From the NCBI GenBank assembly GCA_026169195.1, contig JAPFEH010000081.1:1-45955 (forward strand): a stretch of DNA of 45,955 bases, given 5' to 3'. Each line of letters begins with the position of its first letter. Position 1 is the stretch's first letter. The notes under the pieces are model-generated. The model did no database searches, was not told the DNA's origin, and was given only the letters and a program-made list of their open reading frames with translations. The position numbers and the translations under genes were made by a program. Source of the stretch: Dysosmobacter sp. GTDB lineage: Bacteria; Bacillota; Clostridia; Oscillospirales; Oscillospiraceae. Shown here in pieces: positions 24,686 to 39,059 of the stretch.

Positions 24686-25057
24686 ATGAAGAAAACCGCC
24701 GCAGCCTGTCTATGCGCCGCCATTCTCGCAGCAATTGCCCTCTCCTTTTCCGCGGGACGCCGTCTGGAAATGCAGAACAATCTGGATGCGAGAATCCAGC
24801 AATGCCGCGCGGAGCTCTCCTTTGCTGTCGACCATGCGGAAAAGTATGATCTGTCCGATCCGGGCACGTTGGAAACGGTCACCAGCCATGTCTATGCCGC
24901 CTATGGACTTTGCGACGATCCGGGTCTGGCAGGAGCTTTGTACGTGCTCTGGAATGATCTGCTCTTTCGGGGAGAAACGTTCCTTGATCACGAAGATCTG
25001 CTGATCGTTCGGCTGAATGCTATTCAGGAAGCACTGCACACACAAACCAGCTCCTGA
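24686..25057 (+). CDS. Small exported or membrane-anchored protein, unknown function
   Basis: 123 residues. The N-terminus MKKTAAACLCAAILAAIALS is a signal peptide or anchor. The mature part is helical and acidic with no known motif (LDARIQQCRAELSFAVDHAE, then LWNDLLFRGETFLDHEDLL). GAGGTGTG precedes ATG 24686. Transcribed alone from its own promoter, it converges on the Cys-rich microprotein gene across a palindrome. Confidence 0.75.
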   Translation: MKKTAAACLCAAILAAIALSFSAGRRLEMQNNLDARIQQCRAELSFAVDHAEKYDLSDPGTLETVTSHVYAAYGLCDDPGLAGALYVLWNDLLFRGETFLDHEDLLIVRLNAIQEALHTQTSS

Positions 25058-25091
25058 TGCTTCCAGAGCTCCCCTTTCCCTTGCATCATAA

Positions 25092-25125
25092 AACATACGC
25101 CGGGGCAATTGCCCCGGCGTATGTT
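25092..25125. terminator. Perfect 34-base palindrome between convergent genes, probable terminator
   Basis: The two halves are exact reverse complements centred on CAATTG, with GCCGGGGC / GCCCCGGC in the core. It sits between the stops of the plus-strand 24686 gene and the minus-strand microprotein. There is no long T-run, so termination is likely but less certain than for the others. Confidence 0.6.
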
Positions 25126-25135
25126 CTGCGAGCGG

Positions 25136-25276
25136 TCAGCAGCAGCTGTTATTATTGCTGCAGCCGCAGCTGTTTCCACAGCCGCCCCAGCTGCCATTTC
25201 CGCAGCAGCACCAAATGATGATCAGCAGAATGATGATCCAGCAGCAGTTGCCGCCACCAAAACCGTTATTGCACAT
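25136..25276 (-). CDS. Cys-rich one-helix microprotein (paralogue A)
   Basis: 46 residues, too short for most gene finders. The head MCNNGFGGGNCC is followed by a short hydrophobic run (WIIILLIIIW), CCCG, and a Gly/Asn/Cys tail ending NNNSCC. AGGAGG stands before ATG 25276, which argues strongly for translation. About a quarter of the residues are Cys. A paralogue with the same plan lies at 32971-33129. It resembles small Gly- or Cys-rich proteins of spore-forming Firmicutes (YjcZ-type sporulation peptides, or 'high-cysteine' proteins) in style only; function unknown. Confidence 0.78.
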   Translation of the reverse strand: MCNNGFGGGNCCWIIILLIIIWCCCGNGSWGGCGNSCGCSNNNSCC

Positions 25277-25357
25277 ACAAGGACCTCCTAAAAGTGTTGA
25301 TCGTCAAAGCGATCTCAACACATCTTATGCGCTCCCTGTCTCAGTGTTCCCAAAATC

Positions 25358-26437
25358 TCACAAGCGATTGCCGGTAACCAGATCCCGGGCGTCCATCCAC
25401 TCTCTCCGGCTGAACACGTCCTTTTCCATCAGCACCTCAGCCAAGGTCTCCTCACGATCGGAAAGATGCGCCTCCAGCGCATAATAGGAGATATACACCA
25501 GATCCGCCCGCAAAAACTTCTGCGTCTGCAAGGAGGCCGTTTCTCCGGCAGTCAAAACACCGGCAGATTCCGCCCGCTGCATCACATCCGACAAATCCGT
25601 ATTCGCCGCAGAACTGTATCCCAAAGCCCGCAGCACAAATTCCGTGTACTGTCCGGCTGTCACCTGACCGCCCGGCTTGAACTGCGTGGCAGTATATCCA
25701 TTGGTATAGCCATGCTCATAGGCATATCCCACGTACTGTTCTGCCTGCGATCCTCTTTCCAAGTCCGTAAAGGGCTGTTCTCCGGTCCATGAAAGCGCCT
25801 GTTCCTCCTCGCCCAAAACGCGGATAAACATGATCAGCGCCTGCAGGCGGGTCGGCGCCAATTCCAGATCGAATCCTTCTCCATATCCGGTCAAGCTGCC
25901 CCGGAAGAGGTGCAAAGACTTCAACGCCGCAGCCATTGCATTATAATCCACCGCGTCAGAGGTCATAAACGAACACGTCCCCTGATAGTCCGCCACGGCA
26001 GTTTGAGAAGTGATTTCAAAAACCGCGCTGGTATCCTCTGCTACCAAATACCGGTGATTCACAGCCAATGTCCCCCCGCTGGGCAGCACTGTCCCTGTGG
26101 TGACATCCACCACAGCACCGCCGCCATAGCTGACGCGGCCGCTTCCTGCCAGCAGCAGCACACTGGTCCCCGTCTCTCCGGTCAGCAGGTCTCCCCGCTT
26201 CATTCGGGTTTCCCTCCAAGATACGGCTGTCACAGCCCCCGCTTCTCCGTGGTTCGATCCCCCCAGAATCACCTCATCCGAGCGGTCCAATGCCCGATCG
26301 ACCCGATCTTCCACCTGTCCGAAAAAAGTTTCCTTCAAATAAGTGAGCGAAACCAAAGAATTCTCCCCACTCGCGGCATACGCGCCTGCCGCCAGCAGAA
26401 GACAGGCGGCCAGCAAGCAAATCAGTTTTTTCTTCAT
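25358..26437 (-). CDS. SLH-domain surface protein with an N-terminal beta-rich (FecR-like) domain
   Basis: 359 residues. The signal peptide is MKKKLICLLAACLLLAAGAY, cleaved near AYA-A. Residues about 60-155 form a beta-rich region (RMKRGDLLTGETGTSVLLL, GRVSYGGGAVVDV), similar in style to FecR-like domains. Three S-layer-homology-like repeats follow: about 163-215 (weak), 223-275 (FTDLERGSQAEQYVGYAYEH, then GYTATQFKPGGQVT) and 283-325 (weak). SLH repeats bind pyruvylated wall polymers, so the protein should sit on the cell surface. GAGGATATAGGG precedes ATG 26437. It follows rex by 47 bases and may share its transcript. Confidence 0.85.
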   Translation of the reverse strand: MKKKLICLLAACLLLAAGAYAASGENSLVSLTYLKETFFGQVEDRVDRALDRSDEVILGGSNHGEAGAVTAVSWRETRMKRGDLLTGETGTSVLLLAGSGRVSYGGGAVVDVTTGTVLPSGGTLAVNHRYLVAEDTSAVFEITSQTAVADYQGTCSFMTSDAVDYNAMAAALKSLHLFRGSLTGYGEGFDLELAPTRLQALIMFIRVLGEEEQALSWTGEQPFTDLERGSQAEQYVGYAYEHGYTNGYTATQFKPGGQVTAGQYTEFVLRALGYSSAANTDLSDVMQRAESAGVLTAGETASLQTQKFLRADLVYISYYALEAHLSDREETLAEVLMEKDVFSRREWMDARDLVTGNRL

Positions 26438-26484
26438 AGAATCCCTATATCCTCTCGTCAGTCCGGCATCAAAGCCGGGCGGCG

Positions 26485-27123
26485 TCAGCGATTGGCAATG
26501 CGGTAACTGAGCGTCAGCAGGCTGTCCGCAAAATGAATATTTTCAAACTTCACATTGGGGTTGACACTGGAAAGCTCAATATTGGTAAAATTCCAAAAGC
26601 CATGGACGCCCAGTTCAACCAGATGGTCTGCCATGCTCTGCGCCACAGATTGCGGAACTGTCATCACAACGACATCCACCGTATGTTCCCGAATGTATGT
26701 ATCCAGCTCTTCCATGGAGTAAACAGGAACCCCGTTGACTGTGGAGCCGATCACCGCCGGAGATATATCAAAAGCGCCGTCCACAGTAAAGCCGGTATCA
26801 GAAAATGGAAAATTGTGCAGCAGGGCGCGGCCCAGATTTCCAACGCCGATCATAACCAGATGATGATGATTGTCCACTCCCAAAATATGACCGATCTCCG
26901 TTCGCAATTCCTCTACATTATATCCGTATCCCTGCTGGCCGAACTCGCCAAAGCAGCTGAAATCCTGCCGGATCTGCGAAGCAGTAATATTCATTTCCTG
27001 TCCCAGTGAATGAGACGAAATTCGCACAACGCCACGATTGCACAAATCCGTAAGCTGCCGGTAATAACGGGGCAGACGACGGATCACAGCATCGGAAATA
27101 TTTTCTTTCTTCAAGACACTCAC
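26485..27123 (-). CDS. rex: Redox-sensing transcriptional repressor Rex
   Basis: 212 residues. The N-terminal winged helix (ISDAVIRRLPRYYRQLTDLC, then SHSLGQEMNITASQIRQDFS) is followed by a Rossmann NAD(H)-binding domain with GVGNLGRALLHNF. Rex lifts repression of fermentation genes when the NADH/NAD+ ratio rises. The nominal start is GTG 27123 with AGAGG five bases away; TTG 27114, eight bases after GGAG, is an equal alternative. A promoter and a candidate Rex operator lie just upstream, indicating autoregulation. Confidence 0.95.
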   Translation of the reverse strand: MSVLKKENISDAVIRRLPRYYRQLTDLCNRGVVRISSHSLGQEMNITASQIRQDFSCFGEFGQQGYGYNVEELRTEIGHILGVDNHHHLVMIGVGNLGRALLHNFPFSDTGFTVDGAFDISPAVIGSTVNGVPVYSMEELDTYIREHTVDVVVMTVPQSVAQSMADHLVELGVHGFWNFTNIELSSVNPNVKFENIHFADSLLTLSYRIANR

Positions 27124-27137
27124 TCCTACCTCTTATA

Positions 27138-27155
27138 TTGTTATATCATTCACAT
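27138..27155. promoter_or_regulatory. Candidate Rex operator over the rex transcription start
   Basis: The 18-base sequence TTGTTATATCATTCACAT fits the Rex consensus TTGTKAANNNNTTMACAA with two mismatches, both at edge positions of a half-site. It lies just downstream of the rex -10, where a bound repressor would block initiation. Confidence 0.6.
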
Positions 27156-27158
27156 AAT

Positions 27159-27187
27159 AGTTTAGCGCAAACCGATTAACTTGTCAA
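27159..27187 (-). promoter_or_regulatory. Sigma-A promoter of rex
   Basis: Minus strand: TTGACA (27187-27182), 17-base spacer, TAAACT (27164-27159). The expected start site falls inside the candidate Rex operator. Confidence 0.75.
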
Positions 27188-27230
27188 TTTTTTTAACAAT
27201 CTTTTTTGTGTTTTTTTTTGAAAAAAAAGC

Positions 27231-27259
27231 TTTACACGCGCGAAAAAGTTTGCTATACT
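27231..27259 (+). promoter_or_regulatory. Promoter of the tRNA-Arg gene
   Basis: TTTACA (27231-27236), 17-base spacer, TATACT (27254-27259), 54 bases before the mature tRNA 5' end. Confidence 0.78.
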
Positions 27260-27312
27260 ATCATGGCACCCATCAGTGGGGCGTTCACTGAAAACATTTA
27301 TATTGCTTGTAC

Positions 27313-27389
27313 GCGCCCGTGGCGCAGTTGGATAGCGCGTCAGACTCCGACTCTGAAGGCCGCTGGTTCGAATCCAGTCGGGCGTACCA
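27313..27389 (+). tRNA. tRNA-Arg, anticodon CCG
   Basis: A 77-base cloverleaf with encoded CCA. The acceptor arms are GCGCCCG and CGGGCGT, giving six Watson-Crick pairs and a G1-U72 wobble. The D-arm is GCGC-AGTTGGATA-GCGC. The anticodon stem is TCAGA/TCTGA with loop CTCCGAC, so the anticodon is CCG, reading CGG. The T-arm contains GGTTCGAATCC. It is a single-gene transcript with its own promoter and terminator. Confidence 0.96.
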
Positions 27390-27423
27390 AAAAGAAGGAC
27401 ATCCTATGGATGTCCTTCTTTTT
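27389..27423 (+). terminator. Terminator of tRNA-Arg
   Basis: A 16-base perfect inverted repeat AAAAAGAAGGACATCC / GGATGTCCTTCTTTTT with a TAT loop, starting directly at the CCA end. From here to 27644 I see only a weak possible promoter (TACAAT at 27576). Confidence 0.95.
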
Positions 27424-27644
27424 GATTTCTTGCAGATTCATGGGGGTCCTTTGTCAAGAAAGCAAGTGCCGCCCCCTCTTTTTTCCACCTCAGATAAAAG
27501 AAAACTGCCAAAAAACAATCGGGCAGTTTCCAGCAGTTCGTACAAAATCATGCTTGTAAATTCGTAAAAAAAGGCTACAATATGGGTCTGATTCAAAACA
27601 AGCAGCCGAGACGGCCTCAGGTCTTCCCGGGGAGGGAGTATCTT

Positions 27645-28943
27645 ATGTCTTATCATTTTTTAATGGATCTGGCTCTGATCTTATTGAGCACCAAGCTGCT
27701 GGGGCTCATTACGCAACGGTTTCAGATGCCACAGGTGGTCGGTGCGCTTCTGGCCGGACTGGTTCTTGGACCGGCAGGCTTCAATCTGCTTACAGAAACA
27801 GAATTTCTGTCCCAGCTCAGCGAGCTGGGCGTGATCGTGCTGATGTTCTCCGCCGGCATGGGAACCGATATTCAAGAATTGAAAAACAGCGGAAAAGCAG
27901 GATTCCTCGTTGCTTTACTGGGCGTTTTGGTTCCGCTTTTGATGGGTACGGGACTGGCTTGGGTCTGCAATCAGCTGCAATTGATCAAAAGTACCAGCTT
28001 TTTGGAAGACCTCTTCATCGGCACCATCCTCACCGCCACCTCCGTCAGCATCACGGTAGAGACCTTAAAAGAAATGGGAAAGCTGGATACACAAGTCGGC
28101 AACACCATTTTGGCAGCAGCCTTGATCGATGACGTGCTGGGACTCATTGCACTGACTTTGGTCAGCAGTGTAGCTGGCGGCAGCGAAAGCATCTGGCTGG
28201 TATTGGGCAAAATTGCAGGATTCTTCTTGTTTGCCGCCACAGCAGGATATGCCGCCTACCGCCTGTTTTCCTGGATGCTGGAACGCCAGCATGGCTGGGC
28301 CAGTCATCGAAACACTGTGCTCGCCTTTGTGCTGTGTCTGGTAATGGCCTATTGTGCGGAAGAATTTTTCGGCGTGGCGGATATCACCGGCGCTTATGCC
28401 GCCGGTCTGGTCATTGCCTGTACACCCAAGGCAGCCTATATCCAGTCTAAATACAATCCTCTGGGATATCTGCTGCTCACACCGATTTTTTTCGCCAGCA
28501 TCGGGATCAATGTTCAGTTGACCTCCATGAGCCGCGGACTGGTGCTGTTTTCCCTGCTGCTTCTGGCCGCATCCGTAGTTTCCAAGCTGCTCGGCTGCGG
28601 TCTGGGCGCTAAGCTTTGCGGATTTACGGTGCCGGAAAGCATACAGGTCGGCGTTGGCATGGTGTGCCGCGGCGAGGTGGCTTTGATCGTTGCCAACCGC
28701 GGATTATCTATGGGGATTTTAAGCGAAGACTTGATGACTCCCGTCATCATCACTGTGGTCGGCGGCACCATTCTGACCCCGATCCTGCTGAAGCTGGCTT
28801 TCCACGGTCAGAAAGATACCAGACTGGCCGTCAGCGGAAATCTCAGTGATCGCTATGAAAAAACGGAACAGTTGGATATTGTTGCTCAGCAGCTGCTGGA
28901 TGCAGATCAAAGTATGATGCAGGGCAAGTCCGAAAAGGACTGA
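27645..28943 (+). CDS. Cation/proton antiporter (CPA2, Kef/NapA type)
   Basis: 432 residues, about 12 membrane helices. The family opening MPQVVGALLAGLVLGPAGFN is at about 26-45, LGVIVLMFSAGMGTDIQEL follows near 60, and the core motif AALIDDVLGLIALTL carries the paired Asp typical of electrogenic CPA2 transporters. A second half-channel motif GVGMVCRGEVALIVANRGL follows. No TrkA-N/RCK domain is attached; the C-terminus is a short charged tail. Na+ or K+ is the likely cation exchanged for protons. GGGGAGGGAG precedes ATG 27645. Confidence 0.9.
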   Translation: MSYHFLMDLALILLSTKLLGLITQRFQMPQVVGALLAGLVLGPAGFNLLTETEFLSQLSELGVIVLMFSAGMGTDIQELKNSGKAGFLVALLGVLVPLLMGTGLAWVCNQLQLIKSTSFLEDLFIGTILTATSVSITVETLKEMGKLDTQVGNTILAAALIDDVLGLIALTLVSSVAGGSESIWLVLGKIAGFFLFAATAGYAAYRLFSWMLERQHGWASHRNTVLAFVLCLVMAYCAEEFFGVADITGAYAAGLVIACTPKAAYIQSKYNPLGYLLLTPIFFASIGINVQLTSMSRGLVLFSLLLLAASVVSKLLGCGLGAKLCGFTVPESIQVGVGMVCRGEVALIVANRGLSMGILSEDLMTPVIITVVGGTILTPILLKLAFHGQKDTRLAVSGNLSDRYEKTEQLDIVAQQLLDADQSMMQGKSEKD

Positions 28944-28981
28944 TTCCCCCCTTCAACCGTTCCGGATACAACACAACTGCA

Positions 28982-29016
28982 AAATGCCGCCGAAGGAATC
29001 TCCTTCGGCGGCATTT
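28982..29016. terminator. Bidirectional terminator between antiporter and FAD dehydrogenase genes
   Basis: A 16-base perfect inverted repeat with core GCCGCCGAAGGA / TCCTTCGGCGGC, edged by AAAT and ATTT, loop ATC. It lies between two convergent genes. Confidence 0.9.
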
Positions 29017-29027
29017 CAAATCGTTAA

Positions 29028-30425
29028 TCAACCCTCTTCGGCAATTTTGCGGCCCATGAGAACACCCATGATGGATGCCATCATCAAACCGCGGGTCCAG
29101 CCGGAACTGTCTCCCAAACAGTGCAGCCCTTTCAAGCTGGTATTGAAATCCGTGTCCATCTTCACACGGTTGGAGTAGAATTTCAGCTCCGGAGAATAAA
29201 GCAGCGTTTCATAAGCAGCAAATCCGGGAACCACATGATCCATGGCCTGAATAAACCCAATGATATTGGTCATGGCCCGATAGGGCATGGCGGCAGTAAT
29301 ATCGCCGGCAACAGCGTCCGGCAGCGTAGGCCGGATGTTGGATTGTGCAAGCTCCTTCTGCCATGTCCGCTTACCGTCCAGAATATCTCCGAACCGCTGC
29401 ACCAGAATCTGGCCGTTTGCCAGCATATTGGTCAGCTCGCCCACCTTCTGTGCATAGGCAATGGGCTGGTTGAAGGGAACGGAGAAATTATGGGAACAGA
29501 GGATGGAGAGGTTTGTATTATCGCTCTTCATCTCCTTATAGGAATGCCCGTTCACTACGGCCAGATTGTTGTCATAGTTCTCCTGACTGACAAAGCCGCC
29601 GGGATTCTGGCAGAAGGTGCGGACCTTGTTCTTAAAGGGACGGGGATAGCCTACCAGCTTGGACTCATACAGCACCCGGTTCACCATCTCCATGACCTCA
29701 TTGCGGACCTCGACCCGAACGCCGATATCCACGGTGCCGGGAGCATGGGCGATATTATGTTCGGCGCAGAGCTTTTCCAGCCAGTCGGCCCCGCGGCGTC
29801 CGGTGGCTACCACGGTATGCTTGGCATAGATCTCCAGATCCGTCTTCCCGTTGGTGATGGAAACGCCCTTGCAGACCTCTTCTTCCAGAATCAGGTTCCG
29901 GCACTCGTATCCGAAATACATCTCCACGCCATTTTCCTGCAAATACCGCTCGATCGCCAGATAGATGTCCTGCGCCTTTTCCGTGCCCATATGGCGGATC
30001 GGACAGTCTACCAGCTTCAGTCCCGCATGGATCGCCCGTTTACGGATCTCCTTCCGCTCTTCCTCGTGTTCCAAGCCTTCAATATGGGTATCCGCACCGA
30101 ACTCCAGATAGATCCGGTCCGCATAGTTGATCGTCTCCTGCGCCAGATCCTCCCCGATCAGAGTCGGCAGGTCTCCGCCCACTTCATAGCTCAAAGAAAG
30201 CTTTCCGTCAGAAAACGCACCGGCACCGGAAAAGCCCGTGGTAATATGGCAGTACGGCTTACAATTGACGCACTTGTGCGTTTTATCCTTGGGGCAATGG
30301 CGGTTTTCAATGGCCTGCCCCTTCTCCACCATGACGATTTTCTGGTGGCTCCCTTTTTTGATCATTTCCAACGCGGTGAAAATACCGGCCGGGCCGGCGC
30401 CGACGATCACAACATCTGTGTTCAT
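29028..30425 (-). CDS. Uncharacterised FAD-dependent dehydrogenase (COG2509 type)
   Basis: 465 residues. The N-terminal FAD Rossmann motif is VVIVGAGPAGIFTALEMIKK. A Cys cluster follows (HCPKDKTHKCVNCKPYCH), then GFSGAGAFSDGKLSLS, both typical of this family. A second dinucleotide-type motif (HTVVATGRRGADWLEKL) and a late GDSSGWTRGLMMAS near the C-terminus complete the fold. The substrate is not known; members are often listed simply as NAD(P)/FAD-dependent oxidoreductases. The four-Cys cluster could hold a metal or take part in disulfide chemistry. It lies upstream of a shared terminator and 26 bases downstream of the U32 gene. Confidence 0.9.
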   Translation of the reverse strand: MNTDVVIVGAGPAGIFTALEMIKKGSHQKIVMVEKGQAIENRHCPKDKTHKCVNCKPYCHITTGFSGAGAFSDGKLSLSYEVGGDLPTLIGEDLAQETINYADRIYLEFGADTHIEGLEHEEERKEIRKRAIHAGLKLVDCPIRHMGTEKAQDIYLAIERYLQENGVEMYFGYECRNLILEEEVCKGVSITNGKTDLEIYAKHTVVATGRRGADWLEKLCAEHNIAHAPGTVDIGVRVEVRNEVMEMVNRVLYESKLVGYPRPFKNKVRTFCQNPGGFVSQENYDNNLAVVNGHSYKEMKSDNTNLSILCSHNFSVPFNQPIAYAQKVGELTNMLANGQILVQRFGDILDGKRTWQKELAQSNIRPTLPDAVAGDITAAMPYRAMTNIIGFIQAMDHVVPGFAAYETLLYSPELKFYSNRVKMDTDFNTSLKGLHCLGDSSGWTRGLMMASIMGVLMGRKIAEEG

Positions 30426-30451
30426 ACCATGTTCTCCTTCTCAATTTCCGT

Positions 30452-31672
30452 TTACCGGGCGGATAATTCCACCGCATGCCGCACCAGCGTAAAGGGCGGC
30501 ACCGGCCGGGGCAATTTCATATGGAACGTCATCTGAGGGGTGCGCGGCTCTGTCAGCAAAGCGCCCTCGCCGTCTGTCATCTCCGGCACGGTCATGGCAA
30601 AAGGCCGAAGATCCGGCCCGACCAGTTCCACAGAATCTCCGGTGCGGAACTTATTCCGCAGTGATAGTGTCGCATGTCCCTCTGCATCACACGCGGTCAC
30701 AAGCGCAACCACCTGCCACTTCCGGATATAGCGGGAATTGTCATAATACTGGCCGGGCGGCCCGTAATAGAACCCTGTGGCATAAGGCCGGTGGCTCACA
30801 TGATCCACCTCGTTCCGCCAGACCGGATCCAGCGGCTCTCCAGCCGCCGCACTGTCCAGGCAGTGGCGGTAGGCACCGGTAACAATGGCGGCGTAATAAG
30901 CCGATTTTGCCCGTCCTTCGATCTTCAGGCTGGAAACACCGGCATCCATCAAATCATCCAGATGATCGATCATGCACATGTCTCTGGAATTCAAAATGTA
31001 GGACCCCTGCTGATCCTCCTCAATGGGAAAATATTCGCCGGGTCGTTTTTCTTCCATCAGAGCGTATTGATACCGGCAGGGCTGGGCGCAGGCGCCGCGG
31101 CTGGCGTCCCGCCCTGTCATATAATTACTCAGCAGACACCGTCCGGAATAGCTGACACACATGGCGCCGTGAACAAAGGTCTCCAGTTCCAATTCCGGCG
31201 GGATCTTTTCCCGGATGGTACGGATCTCCTCCAAGCTCAGTTCCCGCGCAAGCACGACCCGGGTGGCCCCCAGATCATACCAGACACGGGCCGTCTCATA
31301 ATTGCAGACGCTGGCCTGCGTAGATACGTGGCGGTGGCAGCGGGGCGCATACTTCCCCGCCAAGGTGAAGGTGCCTAAGTCCGCCGCAATCACTGCATCC
31401 ACGCCAGCATCGTTCAACAGCTCCAAGTGCTCCGGAAGACGGGAAACCTCGTCATTCCGTGGCATGGTATTGATGGTACAATATGTGCGAACGCCGTGAC
31501 TGTGGGCAAACTGTACCGCCTGCCGCAATTCTTCCGGGGTAAAATTCCCGGCAAAAGCCCGCATTCCGAAGTCCGTTCCAGCCAGATATACTGCGTCAGC
31601 ACCGTATAAAACAGCCATACGCAGACGTTCCATGTCTCCCGCGGGCGCTAAAATCTCAGGTTTTTTTCTCAT
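30452..31672 (-). CDS. Peptidase U32 family protein (probable RNA-hydroxylation factor, TrhP-like)
   Basis: 406 residues. It opens with PEILAPAGDMERLRMAVLYG, the usual U32 N-terminus. The U32 signature is present as ETFVHGAMCVSYSGRCLLS, followed by CAQPCRYQYAL, whose cysteines are thought to hold an Fe-S cluster. U32 members TrhP and RlhA hydroxylate tRNA uridine-34 and 23S rRNA cytidine, so a proteolytic role is doubtful. Its place three bases after mltG recalls the Bacillus mltG(yrrL)-yrrM-yrrN-yrrO group, supporting a TrhP-like call. Start ATG 31672. Confidence 0.88.
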   Translation of the reverse strand: MRKKPEILAPAGDMERLRMAVLYGADAVYLAGTDFGMRAFAGNFTPEELRQAVQFAHSHGVRTYCTINTMPRNDEVSRLPEHLELLNDAGVDAVIAADLGTFTLAGKYAPRCHRHVSTQASVCNYETARVWYDLGATRVVLARELSLEEIRTIREKIPPELELETFVHGAMCVSYSGRCLLSNYMTGRDASRGACAQPCRYQYALMEEKRPGEYFPIEEDQQGSYILNSRDMCMIDHLDDLMDAGVSSLKIEGRAKSAYYAAIVTGAYRHCLDSAAAGEPLDPVWRNEVDHVSHRPYATGFYYGPPGQYYDNSRYIRKWQVVALVTACDAEGHATLSLRNKFRTGDSVELVGPDLRPFAMTVPEMTDGEGALLTEPRTPQMTFHMKLPRPVPPFTLVRHAVELSAR

Positions 31673-31675
31673 AAA

Positions 31676-32830
31676 TCAATTTCCAATATAATTGCTGCTG
31701 TTGACAAAATTCAAATGATCCTTGTAGTTGGTGAAGAACTGATGCTTGTGGTCCTTCCCCAGCGCGTAGTAATAGTATCCGGTGCTCTCCGGCTCCAGCG
31801 CAGCCTGAATGGACGCAAGTCCCGGATTTGCAATCGGGGTGGGGGGCAGTCCCGCATTCTTATAAAGGTTGTATGGGGATGCCGTCTCCTTGTCGCTGTT
31901 GGTGATGGCCCCCTGATGGTTGGGCAGGGCATAAAGCAGCGCCGCGTCGATCTGCAGCATTCCGTAAGTGCCGCCCTTATCACCGGGACCTTCCAGACGG
32001 TTATAAATGACCGAGGCAATCTTGCCATGATCCGTTCCATCGGTCTCCTTTTCAATCAAAGACGCAATGGTGACAATATCCTCCAAATCATAACCCCGGC
32101 TCTTCGCCTGCGCCAACAGGTCATCGTCCAGTTTGCTGTTAAAAGTGGCGATCATTTTGTTGAGCGCGTCTGCCGCCTTGCCATCTACATAAAACTCATA
32201 GGTATCCGGGAACAGATATCCCTCCAGACGGCTGATGTCCTCCGACTCATTGTCAATGAAATCGTACTTGAAATTGTAGGTCTGCGCAGCTTTCAGCAGG
32301 TCCTCCTTACTGCTGACATTGTTTTTCGCCAGCAGCTCGATGGTCTCTGAAACCGTGTAGCCCTCTGGGATCGTGACCCAAACCGTTTCCACCGTCATAT
32401 TGCCGGAAGCGCTGCGCATTCCGACAATGAGCGCCCGGTAATCCATCTCCGTATTTAAGGTATACGTTCCCATCCCGATTTTTTCTTCCGCATTGGCAAA
32501 GTTTGCAAACAGACGGAAAAACCAGCGGTACTTGATCAATCCCGCATCTTCCAGCTTCTTTGCCACCGTGCGCACGGTATCCTCCGATGTGATCTGTACC
32601 GTAGCCTCCTTGTATTCCTTATTAAAGGCACACAAATCGCAGGCCAGCAGCCAACCCACGCTGGCAAGAATGGCAGAAGCTGCCAGCACAAACAGAAGAT
32701 ACAGCAGCGGATTGATCCGCTTCCTTCTTTTTCTTTGATAACTTTTTCGGGATACCTGCCGGGTCTGCTCGCTTTTGCGGACCTGCTGGGCATCCCAGCT
32801 GGCAGTATCGCCGCGTTTATAATCAGCCAT
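31676..32830 (-). CDS. mltG: Endolytic murein transglycosylase MltG
   Basis: 384 residues from MADYKRGDTASWDAQQVRKS. A basic cytoplasmic head (SYQRKRRKRINPLL) leads to one membrane helix, then the LysM-like YceG subdomain (IPEGYTVSETIELLAKNNV). The catalytic glutamate is in DIVTIASLIEKET, followed by ASVIYNRL. It cuts nascent glycan strands outside the membrane. The start at 32830 follows GGAGGG; in-frame ATGs further upstream have no ribosome site. Confidence 0.94.
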   Translation of the reverse strand: MADYKRGDTASWDAQQVRKSEQTRQVSRKSYQRKRRKRINPLLYLLFVLAASAILASVGWLLACDLCAFNKEYKEATVQITSEDTVRTVAKKLEDAGLIKYRWFFRLFANFANAEEKIGMGTYTLNTEMDYRALIVGMRSASGNMTVETVWVTIPEGYTVSETIELLAKNNVSSKEDLLKAAQTYNFKYDFIDNESEDISRLEGYLFPDTYEFYVDGKAADALNKMIATFNSKLDDDLLAQAKSRGYDLEDIVTIASLIEKETDGTDHGKIASVIYNRLEGPGDKGGTYGMLQIDAALLYALPNHQGAITNSDKETASPYNLYKNAGLPPTPIANPGLASIQAALEPESTGYYYYALGKDHKHQFFTNYKDHLNFVNSSNYIGN

Positions 32831-32970
32831 GGAACCCTCCATTTCCCTTCGCCGGATTCCGGCGAAGTCACTCGAATTTTTCTTTCTCATTTTCCGGGAA
32901 AATTTCAAATGGTCAGGCTCCATCCAAGCTCCCGGCGCATAGAATGTGTTGAAAAAGTGAGGTGACAATC

Positions 32971-33129
32971 ATGTGGTTTAACAACAACGGAAATAATGAC
33001 TGCTCCTGCCTGTGGCTCATTCTGATCGTCATTCTGCTGTGCTGCTGCTGCGGCTCCGGCGGCGGCAGCCACTGCTGCTGCAGCCATGAATGCGACCATA
33101 ACTGCGGACACGGAGACAGCTGCTGCTGA
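32971..33129 (+). CDS. Cys-rich one-helix microprotein (paralogue B)
   Basis: 52 residues: head MWFNNNGNNDCSC, short hydrophobic run LWLILIVILL, CCCCG, then a Gly/Ser stretch and a Cys/His tail (SHECDHNCGHGDSCC). The ribosome site is GTGAGGTGA. It shares head-helix-CCC-tail order with paralogue A (25136-25276). The His and Cys tail suggests metal binding or disulfide cross-linking. It is divergent from mltG and ends at a terminator. Function unknown. Confidence 0.8.
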   Translation: MWFNNNGNNDCSCLWLILIVILLCCCCGSGGGSHCCCSHECDHNCGHGDSCC

Positions 33130-33142
33130 CAGCCATGGGAAA

Positions 33143-33166
33143 GCGGGGCGCGCAGCGTCCCGTTTT
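33143..33166 (+). terminator. Terminator of microprotein B
   Basis: A 9-bp stem GCGGGGCGC / GCGTCCCGT with two G-U pairs, a 3-base loop, then TTTTCTCTT. Confidence 0.7.
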
Positions 33167-33192
33167 CTCTTCCGCCGCAAGGGACAAGCCTC

Positions 33193-34715: not shown

Positions 34716-37700
34716 TTACAGAACGTTGCCGCAGAACCGGTACAGGATCACCGCGAACTGAGCACGATTGGCGGTGCCGGCGGGGTTCAGAGTCCCCTGC
34801 GCCGTGCCGCCCACGATCTCGTTCTTCACAGACCATGCCATGGCTTCCTTGGCGTAGTCCGCCACAGAAGCGTGGTCGGGGAAGGCGGTCAGATCCGCGG
34901 AGCCGGTGACGTCATAGCCCATCAGCTTGGCGTAGCGATACAGGATCGCCACCATCTGCTGGCGGGTCAGGGCGCCGCCGGGGTTGCTGCCGTCGGATAC
35001 GCCGTTCTCCACGGCCCACTTGCGGGCTGCGGTCATGTCAGCAGGCTGCTCGCCGGCCAGACGGGCCAGCACCATCCACAGCTGCTGACGGGTCACGGTG
35101 CGGCCGGGGGCAAACTGGTCGGCGCTGACGCCGTTCATGTAGCCCTTGCCGTAAGCCCACGTGATCTCCTTCACGGCCCAGAAATCTTCGGGGATGTCCG
35201 CGAAGGGCAGCGTCTCTTCCTTCTCGGCAGTGAAGGTGGCCTCCACGGTCACATCGGAGGCGGGCATGGTGAAGGTAAACTTGGTGTCGCTCTTGGACTT
35301 GACCTTCACGGTGTCGCCGTCCTTGTCGGTGACGGTCAGCTCGTCCAGAACGTAACCCTTGTCGGGATCCACGGTGATGGTGATGGTGTCACCCTTGTCC
35401 GCCCACTTGGAGCTGACCTTGACCTCGCCGTGCTTACCGCTGTCCACCTTCACGGTGTAACGGCCGCTGGAACTGCTGGAACCGCTGGAGGAGGAACCGC
35501 CGCCCACATAGGTCACGGTGTAGGTGCCGTCCTTCTCGCTGACGCTGTACCGATAACCGGCTTCAATCTTTCCGGTAAAGTTTACGCCAGCTGCCTTTTC
35601 CAGCTTGAAGCTGATCTCCCAGCTGATGGTAACGGTCTCATTGCAGTCCTTCAGCAGTTTGATGGTATCGTTGTCCTTTGCCGCATCGATGGCAGCTTTC
35701 AGCGTCGGATAGCCGATCTCACCGATCTCAGCCACTGCCTCATTGGCGGTGGAGAAGGTGAAGGGGCTGAAGCCATGATGAGAGGTAAAGGTGATTGTGC
35801 CATCAGCTGCAGCCGTTGCCTTGTAGAAGTAAGTGCCCTTGGAAGCATCGTGCTTGATGAACACAGCCTTATCACCGAATGTCGCTTCCGGCAGCTGGAC
35901 CGTGACCACAGTCGGACCACTTATGGTAAGCTCCTCAGGGTTTCCGTACGTCACCGCGTTTTTCTGATCGCCCTCGAGAACGATACCGTCGCCGGTCTTG
36001 GCGGTCGAAGCCACCAGCTGGACCTTGGGGGTAATGTCCATCGTGACGGAAACATTTTCACCGGTCTTTTCATAGCCGGTCGTCACGATGTCCAGATAAG
36101 CCTGCGTGTAAACAATAATGTCATCCTTCTTATCTTCTCCCAGTACCTTCACAGCCGCATCAACAGCCGCGGTCTTTTCGCCATCACTGACGGCAACCTT
36201 GGCGGCTTCTGCGCCCAGCGCAGGGACTTCCACAGACTTGGCGGCCGCTTCGATTGCTTGCTTCGTAGCCTCGTCATCGATTTGGATCTCGGTCGTGACC
36301 TCCGGCTCCTTGACAGCGGGCTTCACAGGGGTCTCATCCTCTGCTGCCACTACCTTGTAGATGTAACGAGCGTCATCATTCGATACTGCGGCATAACCGT
36401 CCGCCACATAAGCGCCGGGGTCGGAGGTGAAGTAGCCGGCAGAGATGCTTACATCCGCAGCTTCGTTAGCCGGATTAAAATACGGATTTTGTGTACCAAC
36501 TTTGAATGTGCCATTGACATAGGGAACAGCGCCGTTATTCCCCTGCTGAATCTTTACAATTGGCTTATTGGTAACATTTGCACCATATTGCACAGCCTGA
36601 ATCTCGCCCTCAATGGTTCCACCGCTGATCGTTGTGGTGGCATTGGTACTATTATATGTCCACGTAGTAATCTCACCGGTCAGATGGCCACCGGAAATGT
36701 TGGCTGTTGCCCAGTTCTGAACGGCCTGCGTCTTGGAGCTGATCGTGCCGCCGGTGATATTCAACACACCGCCATATTCGTCATTCTTGACAGCAATAAA
36801 GTTATCCTGAGCGATGACACCGCCCTCAATGTTCAGTACTGCGTTGCTGCCAGATGTAACGGCACTGGCGATCAGGGAAGAACCAGCCCAATCAGGCGGC
36901 AGCTTACCGGAGCCATTGGTTACCGTACCAGCTTGAATCGTCATGGTACCTTCATTTTGAATGGTATAATAGCTACCAGTCTCTTTGGTATCCTCACGCT
37001 TGATGGTACCGGCATTGGTTCCGCTGCTGTCCTGAATCACCACAGTACCGTGATTGGTCAGCGCAGCTTTGCTCTTAACCGTACCGCCGTTCAGCGTCTT
37101 GCCGTTCAGGTCCAGCGTGATGGTCTTGCCTGCGCTGATGGTCACATTTTCACTGGTATCCTTTATCAGCTTTACGCTCTCGACATTTTCCGCATCCACG
37201 GCTTCCTGCAAGGTTAAATACTTGCCAGTGCTTCCGTCAGACAGGGTAGCCTCAGCCACAGCCGCGGCGTCCTTGGACACTACTTCATAAAAGTCGCCGT
37301 TTTTCACAGTGACATAGCCCGCTGCGCAGAAGTTCGTATCTTTTCCCTCTGCCAGACAGTCAGCCGGATTAAACTTCTTGAAGGTACCGCCGCTGACCAC
37401 AATGGACGCAGTTTCATTCTCGTAATTCTCATCAAGGCAATTCAGCGTATAGCGTTCTCCATCTGCGCCGCTTTCCTTCTGCTGAATGGAGAAGGAGCCA
37501 CCCTTTACTGTCAGTTCGCCCGTGTGGACATACACTGCGGAAATGTTTCCAACAAATGTGCCGTTCTCAATTGTACACTTAGCACCCTCGGCGCTGAGGT
37601 CAATCGCGTAGCAGTCATTTTCCTTGGCATGAATCGTTCCGTTTCCGGTGATGGTCAGGTTGCCCTTCTCCCCCACGCGGATGTGGGACCAAGCTCCGCC

Positions 37701-39059
37701 ATCGCCACCCCAAATGTCTTTTGTATTGGTGGTGGTCTTGCCATTCAGGTTCAGCGTAATGGTCTTGTTTGCCACCGTAACGCAGGCGTCCAGAACGACA
37801 TTGTCCAGAAGCTTCACGGTACCGCCGTCCACCGCCGCATCCACAGCATCTTTCAGGGTTGCATACTTTTTTGTCCCCTCTGCAGTGGTAGCTTCGGCAA
37901 CGGCTACCTCATCCAGCCTGCCGACCTCGCCGTTGGCATTCTGCACATAGCCCTCTGCCAGATACTTTTCATCGATCTTGCTGGAGAATGTACCGCCGGA
38001 AATGGCAATTTCCCGCTTAACATCCGCAGCTTCGCCCTTTTTAATAAACATCTGGACAGCCAGACTGTTCTTACTCTCAAAGGTTCCGCCGGTGATCGCC
38101 ACACTGATATCACGGTCATTATAGCCGCTTTCTACATAGATCGCATCGCCAGTTGTAACAAGATCACCAGATCCCTGATAGTACTCTTCCGGAACAACCT
38201 TTTCCCCGTATCCGGTAATTTTTGTTTGATTGCCGCCGATCTCCACGGAGCCACCCTTGATTGTTACTCCGGTCGGTGCTGTGATATCGCTATTTTCGAT
38301 CACCAGCTTACCGCTCTTCGGCGGGAAGTAGATTGCCAACGTTCCGGATTTGATCGTGGAATTTCTGACCGTCAGATTGTTGTCTGTATTATTACCCTGT
38401 ACACCCAGCGTCTGATCGGTCACCTCCATCGTCACACCATCCAATGTTACATTGACATGATCGTAGCCTTTATTCTCTACTTTGTTGTGATAAACATACA
38501 GACCGTATGTCTCTTTTCCTGTTCCCTTGATGGTGCCATTGACGATCTGTAAGTCCAGATCGCCAGCCTTTATCATAATAACATCGTACTGATTGCTACA
38601 GGTGTACGTACAGTTATTCAGATTCAGCAAATACTTGCCGCTCTGGTCAAATGTCACCGCATCGGCGGTTTTGATATTATCCAGCAGCTTGATTTCTGCG
38701 CGTTCGCCCCCTTTAGCTGCTTCCTCAGCGGCATCAATAGCCTGTTGCAGCGTCTCAAACTGCTGCCCATTGACCTCCGCCACCTTTGTCGCGTTTGCCA
38801 CGGGGGCTGCTTCCGTCAGAAGCGCGGCGGGAATACTCTCCCCATTCTCCGCAGGAGTCTCCGGTGCGGTCTCCTCCGTCGGAGTTTCCGTCTGTTCCGG
38901 TGTCTCCGGTGCCGGGGTCTCCGGCGTTTGGTTCTGCGTCTCTTCTACGGAATTCTGAGTCTCATCGACCGGTTCTTCCGCAAACGCGCCTACAGTCATC
39001 ACGCTCATGGTCATGACTACCGCCAGAAACAGAGCCAATAATTTTTTGCCTGTTTTCAT
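34716..39059 (-). CDS. Giant modular SLH-domain surface protein
   Basis: 1447 residues. The signal peptide is MKTGKKLLALFLAVVMTMSV, cleaved near AFA-E. A Pro/Thr/Glu-rich stalk (about 28-75) follows. Four related modules open with VAE...TL..A.DAA...KLL: near 93, 386, 600 and 1109. Between them lie Gly/Thr/Ile-rich beta-helix-type turns (ISGGTF, ITGGTI, IEGGVI and the like), as in pectate-lyase-fold adhesins, but no lyase catalytic residues that I recognise. A Ser linker (GGGSSSSGSSSSSG, about 1183-1196) leads to an InlB-B/bacterial-repeat domain (about 1199-1275), then three SLH repeats to the end, the first with FADIPEDFWAVKEITWAYGK. It is probably a wall-anchored adhesin or surface-layer-associated protein. 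AAAGGAGAAG precedes ATG 39059. Confidence 0.9.
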   Translation of the reverse strand: MKTGKKLLALFLAVVMTMSVMTVGAFAEEPVDETQNSVEETQNQTPETPAPETPEQTETPTEETAPETPAENGESIPAALLTEAAPVANATKVAEVNGQQFETLQQAIDAAEEAAKGGERAEIKLLDNIKTADAVTFDQSGKYLLNLNNCTYTCSNQYDVIMIKAGDLDLQIVNGTIKGTGKETYGLYVYHNKVENKGYDHVNVTLDGVTMEVTDQTLGVQGNNTDNNLTVRNSTIKSGTLAIYFPPKSGKLVIENSDITAPTGVTIKGGSVEIGGNQTKITGYGEKVVPEEYYQGSGDLVTTGDAIYVESGYNDRDISVAITGGTFESKNSLAVQMFIKKGEAADVKREIAISGGTFSSKIDEKYLAEGYVQNANGEVGRLDEVAVAEATTAEGTKKYATLKDAVDAAVDGGTVKLLDNVVLDACVTVANKTITLNLNGKTTTNTKDIWGGDGGAWSHIRVGEKGNLTITGNGTIHAKENDCYAIDLSAEGAKCTIENGTFVGNISAVYVHTGELTVKGGSFSIQQKESGADGERYTLNCLDENYENETASIVVSGGTFKKFNPADCLAEGKDTNFCAAGYVTVKNGDFYEVVSKDAAAVAEATLSDGSTGKYLTLQEAVDAENVESVKLIKDTSENVTISAGKTITLDLNGKTLNGGTVKSKAALTNHGTVVIQDSSGTNAGTIKREDTKETGSYYTIQNEGTMTIQAGTVTNGSGKLPPDWAGSSLIASAVTSGSNAVLNIEGGVIAQDNFIAVKNDEYGGVLNITGGTISSKTQAVQNWATANISGGHLTGEITTWTYNSTNATTTISGGTIEGEIQAVQYGANVTNKPIVKIQQGNNGAVPYVNGTFKVGTQNPYFNPANEAADVSISAGYFTSDPGAYVADGYAAVSNDDARYIYKVVAAEDETPVKPAVKEPEVTTEIQIDDEATKQAIEAAAKSVEVPALGAEAAKVAVSDGEKTAAVDAAVKVLGEDKKDDIIVYTQAYLDIVTTGYEKTGENVSVTMDITPKVQLVASTAKTGDGIVLEGDQKNAVTYGNPEELTISGPTVVTVQLPEATFGDKAVFIKHDASKGTYFYKATAAADGTITFTSHHGFSPFTFSTANEAVAEIGEIGYPTLKAAIDAAKDNDTIKLLKDCNETVTISWEISFKLEKAAGVNFTGKIEAGYRYSVSEKDGTYTVTYVGGGSSSSGSSSSSGRYTVKVDSGKHGEVKVSSKWADKGDTITITVDPDKGYVLDELTVTDKDGDTVKVKSKSDTKFTFTMPASDVTVEATFTAEKEETLPFADIPEDFWAVKEITWAYGKGYMNGVSADQFAPGRTVTRQQLWMVLARLAGEQPADMTAARKWAVENGVSDGSNPGGALTRQQMVAILYRYAKLMGYDVTGSADLTAFPDHASVADYAKEAMAWSVKNEIVGGTAQGTLNPAGTANRAQFAVILYRFCGNVL

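Follow-up and report, generated by a model that had tools for sequence, protein, structure and literature searches.

What are the two very small, cysteine-rich genes that lie 7.7 kb apart on opposite strands of a Dysosmobacter contig, and when would the cell make their products? The stretch analysed here, called the window throughout, is contig JAPFEH010000081.1 (45,955 nt; GenBank assembly GCA_026169195.1) of a Dysosmobacter sp. from the order Oscillospirales. An initial interpretation, the sequence-only reading, had presented the two genes, A and B, as dispersed paralogues for membrane-tethered peptides that cross-link or bind metal, perhaps at the spore or envelope. Profile comparisons place both in an un-named microprotein family of Oscillospirales-type Clostridia. 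New here is a sigma-K-type promoter on genes of this family, and the products of A and B probably serve as small structural or anchoring components in the outer layers of the spore. The genes and their start signals are:

25136..25276, minus strand: microprotein gene A, 46 amino acids (aa), MCNNGFGGGNCCWIIILLIIIWCCCGNGSWGGCGNSCGCSNNNSCC
25284..25289, minus strand: ribosome-binding site of A, AGGAGG, from the sequence
25321..25329, minus strand: sigma-K-type promoter of A, −10 element CATAAGATG, ranked 1 of 91,846 positions by a weight matrix
25346..25350, minus strand: the same promoter, −35 element GGAAC, 16 nt ahead of CATA
32971..33129, plus strand: microprotein gene B, 52 aa from the ATG at 32971, MWFNNNGNNDCSCLWLILIVILLCCCCGSGGGSHCCCSHECDHNCGHGDSCC
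about 32957..32965, plus strand: ribosome-binding site of B, GTGAGGTGA, from the sequence
32938..32946, plus strand: sigma-K-type promoter of B, −10 element CATAGAATG, ranked 2 of 91,846 positions by the same matrix
32919..32922, plus strand: weak −35-like TCCA of B, correctly spaced; the consensus is AACC/A

Coordinates, strands, lengths and start codons agree with the sequence-only reading, as do both ribosome-binding sites and the four His residues in the tail of B. For B we used the ATG at 32971; the open reading frame (ORF) tool begins three codons earlier, at a GTG. A is built from a Gly/Asn head, CCW, an 8-residue Ile/Leu run, WCCCG and a Cys-rich tail, and B from an Asn/Gly head, CSCLW, an 8-residue Ile/Leu/Val run, CCCCG and a Cys/His tail. 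The plan proposed earlier thus holds for the head, run, CCC(C)G block and Cys-rich tail, but the runs are 8 residues long rather than about ten, and Trp flanks the run on both sides in A only, B having it on one side.

Evidence on the timing of expression comes from the 120 nt ahead of 122 genes (120 from 119 loci, of which L064 has two genes, together with A and B). Amid otherwise unrelated flanks, these upstream regions share one element: AAC, a gap of 16–17 nt, then CATAnnATR. Its strict form, AAC-N15-17-CATAnnATR, was present in 55 of 122 regions, compared with 0.15 in dinucleotide shuffles, 0 of 122 on the reverse strand and 5 of 666 upstream regions of neighbouring ORFs, a control made of mechanically chosen frames of at least 200 aa whose starts may be wrong. 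The −10 part alone (CATAnnATR) occurred in 87 of 122 regions (2.3 in shuffles; 22/666 neighbouring ORFs), and a looser form, AC-N15-18-CATAnnnTR, in 95 of 122 (0.97 in shuffles, maximum 7). Sorted by neighbourhood, the looser pattern precedes 14 of 22 members beside mltG, 20 of 26 beside genes of the ctsR/clpC group, all 15 beside an SLH-domain protein gene and 44 of 56 elsewhere. The spacing in the 93 sites later used for training was 16 nt in 49, 17 nt in 43 and 15 nt in one.

Two control genes were taken from genomes of this order: spoIVA, treated as sigma-E-dependent, from 20 of 257 genomes, and dpaA from 30 of 74, both drawn from the genomes listed, with starts guessed from nearby ribosome-binding sites or the match start and windows of 160 nt. 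In C. difficile, according to an excerpt of PMC3789822, sigma-E and sigma-K promoters have a common −10 and differ at −35 (ATA for sigma-E, AC for sigma-K), and dpaA is a sigma-K gene. Because of this reported difference, both forms were tested on the two controls. The sigma-K form preceded 1 of 20 spoIVA genes and 13 of 30 dpaA genes (9/30 within the last 120 nt), and the sigma-E form 8 of 20 and 3 of 30, respectively. Ahead of the microprotein genes, the sigma-E form was found in 4 of 122 regions, against 4.6 in shuffles. A weight matrix trained on the 93 sites, with A and B excluded, gave its highest score among the window positions on both strands to the site of A (20.9) and its second highest to that of B (15.9); the third site scored 11.7. 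By these measures, A has both the −10 and the −35 (AAC-N16) of a sigma-K promoter, and B has the −10 with a weak −35. A sigma-70 scan returned nothing upstream of A or B and one weak sigma-70-like match inside A.

SigK is encoded in the same genome (283 bits, above the NF004471 subfamily cut-off of 252), as are SigE, above both its cut-offs, Spo0A and SpoIVA. The motif GIS(R/Q)SY carries R in SigK and Q in SigE; this residue we take to be the position that reads the −35. The −35-reading position of sigma factors is discussed in the excerpt of PMC3789822. Given a sigma-K-type promoter and a SigK in the genome, A and B are probably late mother-cell sporulation genes, which lends support to the spore connection first suggested for them. 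The genome (95.6% complete) gave no match to DpaA_N (PF16924) despite its Spo0A, SpoIVA, SigE and SigK, which suggests an assembly gap or a different dipicolinate route. SpoIVA occurs almost throughout the order (257 of 295 genomes), in 108 of the 112 genomes with a family match at E≤1e-3 and in 149 of the 183 others; co-occurrence with SpoIVA was set aside as a test, being nearly uninformative for a protein so common.

Selection on the reading frame marks the A-type genes as coding. Across the first 26 codons of A-type genes (14 loci of Oscillibacter-like genomes, the window included), the proportion of synonymous differences (pS) was 0.29 and that of nonsynonymous differences (pN) 0.007: strong purifying selection acts on A from its head through the hydrophobic run to CCCG. 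No such synonymous bias appeared in either shifted sense frame of these loci or in two of the antisense frames; another antisense frame showed a weaker version (pS 0.24, pN 0.022), as expected from the third positions that it shares with the coding frame. Pooled close pairs from other groups gave pS 0.32 and pN 0.014 (n=13; 16 pairs were tried, 13 passed the similarity filter and some share a member). Tails change freely in length and sequence. Coding selection in A, homologues with the same plan and the shared promoter lift the microprotein genes beyond chance, and A and B are, judged from sequence, real genes.

Database searches at E≤1 returned 34 proteins for A and 4 for B. A mixed profile found 513 proteins at E≤0.01 among 8000 candidates scored, and the few that bear a name among the 120 matches listed are each called 'hypothetical protein'. 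Among 295 genomes sampled from the order, a core profile matched 146 at E≤0.1, covering 88 of 149 genera, and 112 at E≤1e-3; some genomes hold more than one copy. Homologues with conserved Cys positions had been predicted, and Cys stands on both sides of the run in 115 of 121 distinct members. These members consist of 23.8% Cys, 19.5% Gly and 15.5% Asn, and 99 of the 121 have no Lys or Arg. His makes up 0.2% of residues, so the His-rich tail of B is not a family feature. Lengths range from 26 to 77 aa. In 38 of 120 member rows the protein is tail-less (7 residues or fewer after the run; 26–33 aa), ending at CCC(C) and a few residues, and 32 of these 38 retain the sigma-K pattern. The existence of this form makes head, run and CCC the constant part and places the conserved function in the core.

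Beyond the order, the core profile matched 10 of 398 genomes in a sample of the phylum at E≤0.001, five within Oscillospirales and five outside. Three of the five outside belong to one family, f124, whose peptides, where read, share the plan (for example, MTDAKFIGSFGGCWWIIFIIIIICCCCGRF); in the other two (G489 and G339) the peptide pattern found no gene, and the G489 match spans a stop. Tail-less relatives also occur in f124 (L297, L299, L300 and L306–L308), several with a CATA-type −10 by eye, and the family has two matches in G604 and three in G665. Pfam and NCBIfam scans of members gave nothing better than E 0.02. We found no paper on the family in open-licence PMC; subscription work, such as large small-protein catalogues, may list it.

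The surroundings of A and B recur in relatives. The flanking features in the window are:

25358..26437, minus strand: SLH-domain protein gene, directly upstream of A on the same strand, a neighbour conserved at A-type genes
26485..27123, minus strand: Rex-like regulator gene upstream of the SLH gene, an order kept in relatives
25299..25314, minus strand: small stem-loop GAUCG-N6-CGAUC in the leader of A, weak (z −0.7 for this leader)
25090..25127, no strand assigned: strong hairpin 3' of A, −38 kcal/mol, z −5.9 (70-nt stretch)
31676..32848, minus strand: mltG (YceG family, PF02618), head-to-head with B; the start at 32848 is a choice
33137..33169, plus strand: hairpin 3' of B, −28 kcal/mol, z −2.3, with a U-run within its 3' arm

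At 15 A-type loci an SLH-domain protein gene precedes the microprotein gene on the same strand, and in 13 of the 15 a Rex-like gene lies ahead of it; the name Rex, for a product with Put_DNA-bind_N and CoA_binding domains, is our presumption. Of the 43 genomes in which both genes were among the matches listed (150 for mltG), 24 have a B-type gene head-to-head with mltG, a count made with a core profile built partly from mltG-linked members. Each of these pairs is divergent and lies no more than 1.5 kb from the YceG domain, no pair at that distance being otherwise oriented, and in 20 loci (families f1, f2, f12, f15 and f17) the gaps between reading frames, measured from first possible starts, are 18–218 bp. 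A third setting, head-to-head with genes of the ctsR-mcsA-mcsB-clpC group, is found in f23, f26 and f9 and at several other loci. The f23 and f26 loci beside this group are L140, L142, L147, L148, L168, L183, L192, L203–L205, L207 and L213, and most f26 loci face clpC directly. One f9 genome, G008, has a copy at the ctsR place and a weaker match beside mltG (E 1.6e-5, spanning a stop codon).

The hairpins that the sequence-only reading noted after each gene are both stable; a terminator scan requiring a T-run found none at A or B. The hairpin at 25090..25127 is also downstream of a convergent 123-aa ORF (24686–25057, plus strand) with a signal-peptide-like start and without a Pfam match. A short stem-loop near the predicted transcript start recurs in A-type genes as GACCG...CGGTC and variants (for example, L063, L066–L068 and L097). 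It may be a 5' hairpin that stabilises the mRNA; its overall statistical support is weak. It was rejected as a conserved RNA element: stems recur at a similar place in relatives of A, yet the mean z over 54 leaders of at least 35 nt was −1.4, with 9 of the 54 below −2 (50 other leaders are shorter than 35 nt). Further along the window, a 1447-aa ORF (34716–39059, minus strand) contains recurring stretches rich in Gly and Thr, and by eye its C-terminal part resembles SLH repeats.

The earlier description of A and B as dispersed paralogues stands for their positions, on opposite strands 7.7 kb apart; for their descent it holds as likely, though not proven. BLASTP of A against B gave no alignment, and within their own genome neither the A-type profile finds B at E≤0.01 nor the B-side profile A. 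The A-side and B-side profiles both match the same mltG-linked copies in four genomes (G055, G085, G139 and G214). With compositional correction off, the A-type profile scored 22 of 22 mltG-linked members above all 50 of their full shuffles and 17 of 22 above all 50 block-preserving shuffles; B alone, scoring 47.1, fell just short of its best block shuffle (48.1). Descent from a common ancestor is the likely explanation, and convergence on a simple plan is possible.

We are moderately confident in the following model: a Cys-flanked hydrophobic microprotein, expressed under sigma-K, would be anchored or packed in the spore envelope and locked there by disulfides. Sigma-K RNA polymerase would transcribe A and B in the mother cell late in sporulation, from promoters recognised by their sequence. 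The product, mostly without Lys or Arg, would use its Ile/Leu/Val run to insert or pack into a hydrophobic layer or membrane of the developing spore, most likely at the outer forespore membrane or the coat interface. The Cys blocks flanking the run, and the C/G/N tail where present, would then form disulfides with one another and with envelope proteins, a step that may be timed after mother cell lysis, when the spore is exposed to oxidant. Of these steps, the promoter has good support from the conserved upstream element; the spore location and cross-linking we infer, as a part of the spore envelope is the simplest role for a small, nearly uncharged, Cys-flanked hydrophobic peptide probably made in the late mother cell. 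The initial interpretation is partly supported overall, and its membrane-helix, cross-linking proposal is plausible. A more far-reaching version, in which such peptides serve throughout Oscillospirales as late-sporulation 'rivets', mother-cell membrane peptides that disulfides lock so as to tie the outer spore membrane covalently to coat or exosporium, is tentative and, to us, doubtful.

Several observations weigh against this model. For the promoter, 27 of the 122 upstream regions lack even the looser pattern. A further 22 loci, of 141, are missing from the promoter counts, as the peptide pattern located no gene there. B does not match the AC −35 pattern and has the weak TCCA only. The −10 alone is near-palindromic, 35 of 122 regions also matching it on the reverse strand. 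Being drawn from related genomes, the regions are not independent of one another, and their independence is overstated in the shuffle comparison; close relatives of A are also among the sites that trained the matrix. Genome-wide, the strict GGAAC-N15-17-CATAnnATR occurred at 4 sites against 3 for a reversed control; since the two are alike, the short pattern alone defines no regulon, and specificity rests on the matrix and on conservation. For the sigma factor, SigK scored 281 against the stricter TIGR02846 cut-off of 298.65, falling below it, and SigE also came just over the NF004471 cut-off (253.9). Family presence tracks sporulation weakly, with genome completeness a confounder, and four genomes with a family match at E≤1e-3 (G039, G154, G165 and G263) were without SpoIVA. 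Finally, at 8 to about 11 residues the hydrophobic run is short, and its flanks are without charge.

That shape could also suggest a coat or exosporium peptide that self-assembles, its Ile-rich run forming a β-strand or amyloid-like zipper instead of a membrane helix and its Cys residues locking the assembly. An Ile/Val-rich run of 8 to about 11 residues between Gly/Asn/Cys flanks, with almost no charge, fits such a peptide, and Cys-rich self-assembling proteins of the spore surface are known (CdeC, CsxA and CotY, in excerpts of the papers cited below); however, the conserved Trp beside a hydrophobic run with polar flanks fits a membrane segment too, and we consider self-assembly unlikely. In a metallothionein-like role, Zn, Cu or Fe would be held at the spore membrane by C-x-C tails, for example CGCSCGGCNCGGCNCGGCNCGGCNCGC of the A-type gene at L068, and by the Cys/His tail of B. 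This reading draws on the four His of B but places function in the dispensable part of the protein: the tail-less rows, most of them with the sigma-K pattern, do without it, its length varies, His is not conserved in the family and no metallothionein model was among the Pfam and NCBIfam scan matches. We therefore hold metal binding to be decidedly unlikely.

The divergent pairing with mltG, found in families f1, f2, f9, f12, f15 and f17, would suit a small membrane protein that regulates cortex synthesis or the divergently encoded MltG. Yet 19 of the 43 genomes lack this pairing, and members beside ctsR/mcsA/mcsB/clpC or Rex-SLH genes carry the same promoter, which makes such a regulator very improbable. 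Small size, hydrophobicity and more than one copy in some genomes are also what a vegetative toxic peptide (a type I toxin, holin or bacteriocin) would show, but the late-sporulation promoter and the conserved chromosomal places speak against one, as does the strong purifying selection. A scan of viral contigs gave 147 pattern matches, none confirmed, and A had no match in phage or plasmid records, a weak negative with A as the only query and the low-complexity filter on. A toxin is accordingly the explanation to which we give hardly any credence. An Rfam scan of the window gave one tRNA only.

If the envelope model is right, the family supplies a candidate structural component and marker of spores that is nameless in Pfam and NCBIfam, and the order-specific sigma-K promoter matrix could help to locate late spore genes. 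Spores spread many dominant gut anaerobes between hosts, and to our knowledge little has been learnt about the proteins of the spore envelope apart from those of Bacillus and C. difficile.

Among known systems, the Bacillus YjcZ-type tiny transmembrane proteins (PF09680) and SscA, a small sigma-K-dependent coat-assembly protein, have a Gly-rich head and one hydrophobic run in about 25–30 aa, are spore-associated and are not known to carry Cys blocks. The tail-less members look closest to them. PF09680, a model we presume to have been in the set, matched none of 29 core sequences at E≤10, in a scan whose HMMER filters hide most matches above about 0.1. CdeC/CdeM, CsxA and CotY/ExsY are of mother-cell origin with a cross-linking role, and are larger proteins not known to have the plan described here. 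The Pfam and NCBIfam scans, with a best E of 0.02, did not link our members to the Cys-rich coat and exosporium families CotY/CotZ, CdeC and CsxA, for which we assume models to exist there. Richness in Cys and, as proposed here for our family, a mother-cell origin, a cross-linking role and a place in the spore envelope are common to both, whereas the present proteins have 26–77 aa, one hydrophobic run and a CxW...CCC core. Cys-rich proteins of the spore surface in Clostridia and Bacilli, these among them, are described in excerpts of PMC7677010, PMC6101409, PMC7333573 and PMC8546674. A further comparison is with SpoVM (see PMC5607322). It is likewise a tiny mother-cell peptide at the forespore surface, the place and origin that we suggest for A and B. 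The two differ in chemistry and probably in timing. SpoVM, a 26-aa amphipathic peptide that anchors the coat, is made early under sigma-E and its amphipathic helix is charged, whereas the members of this family are nearly uncharged and sigma-K-type.

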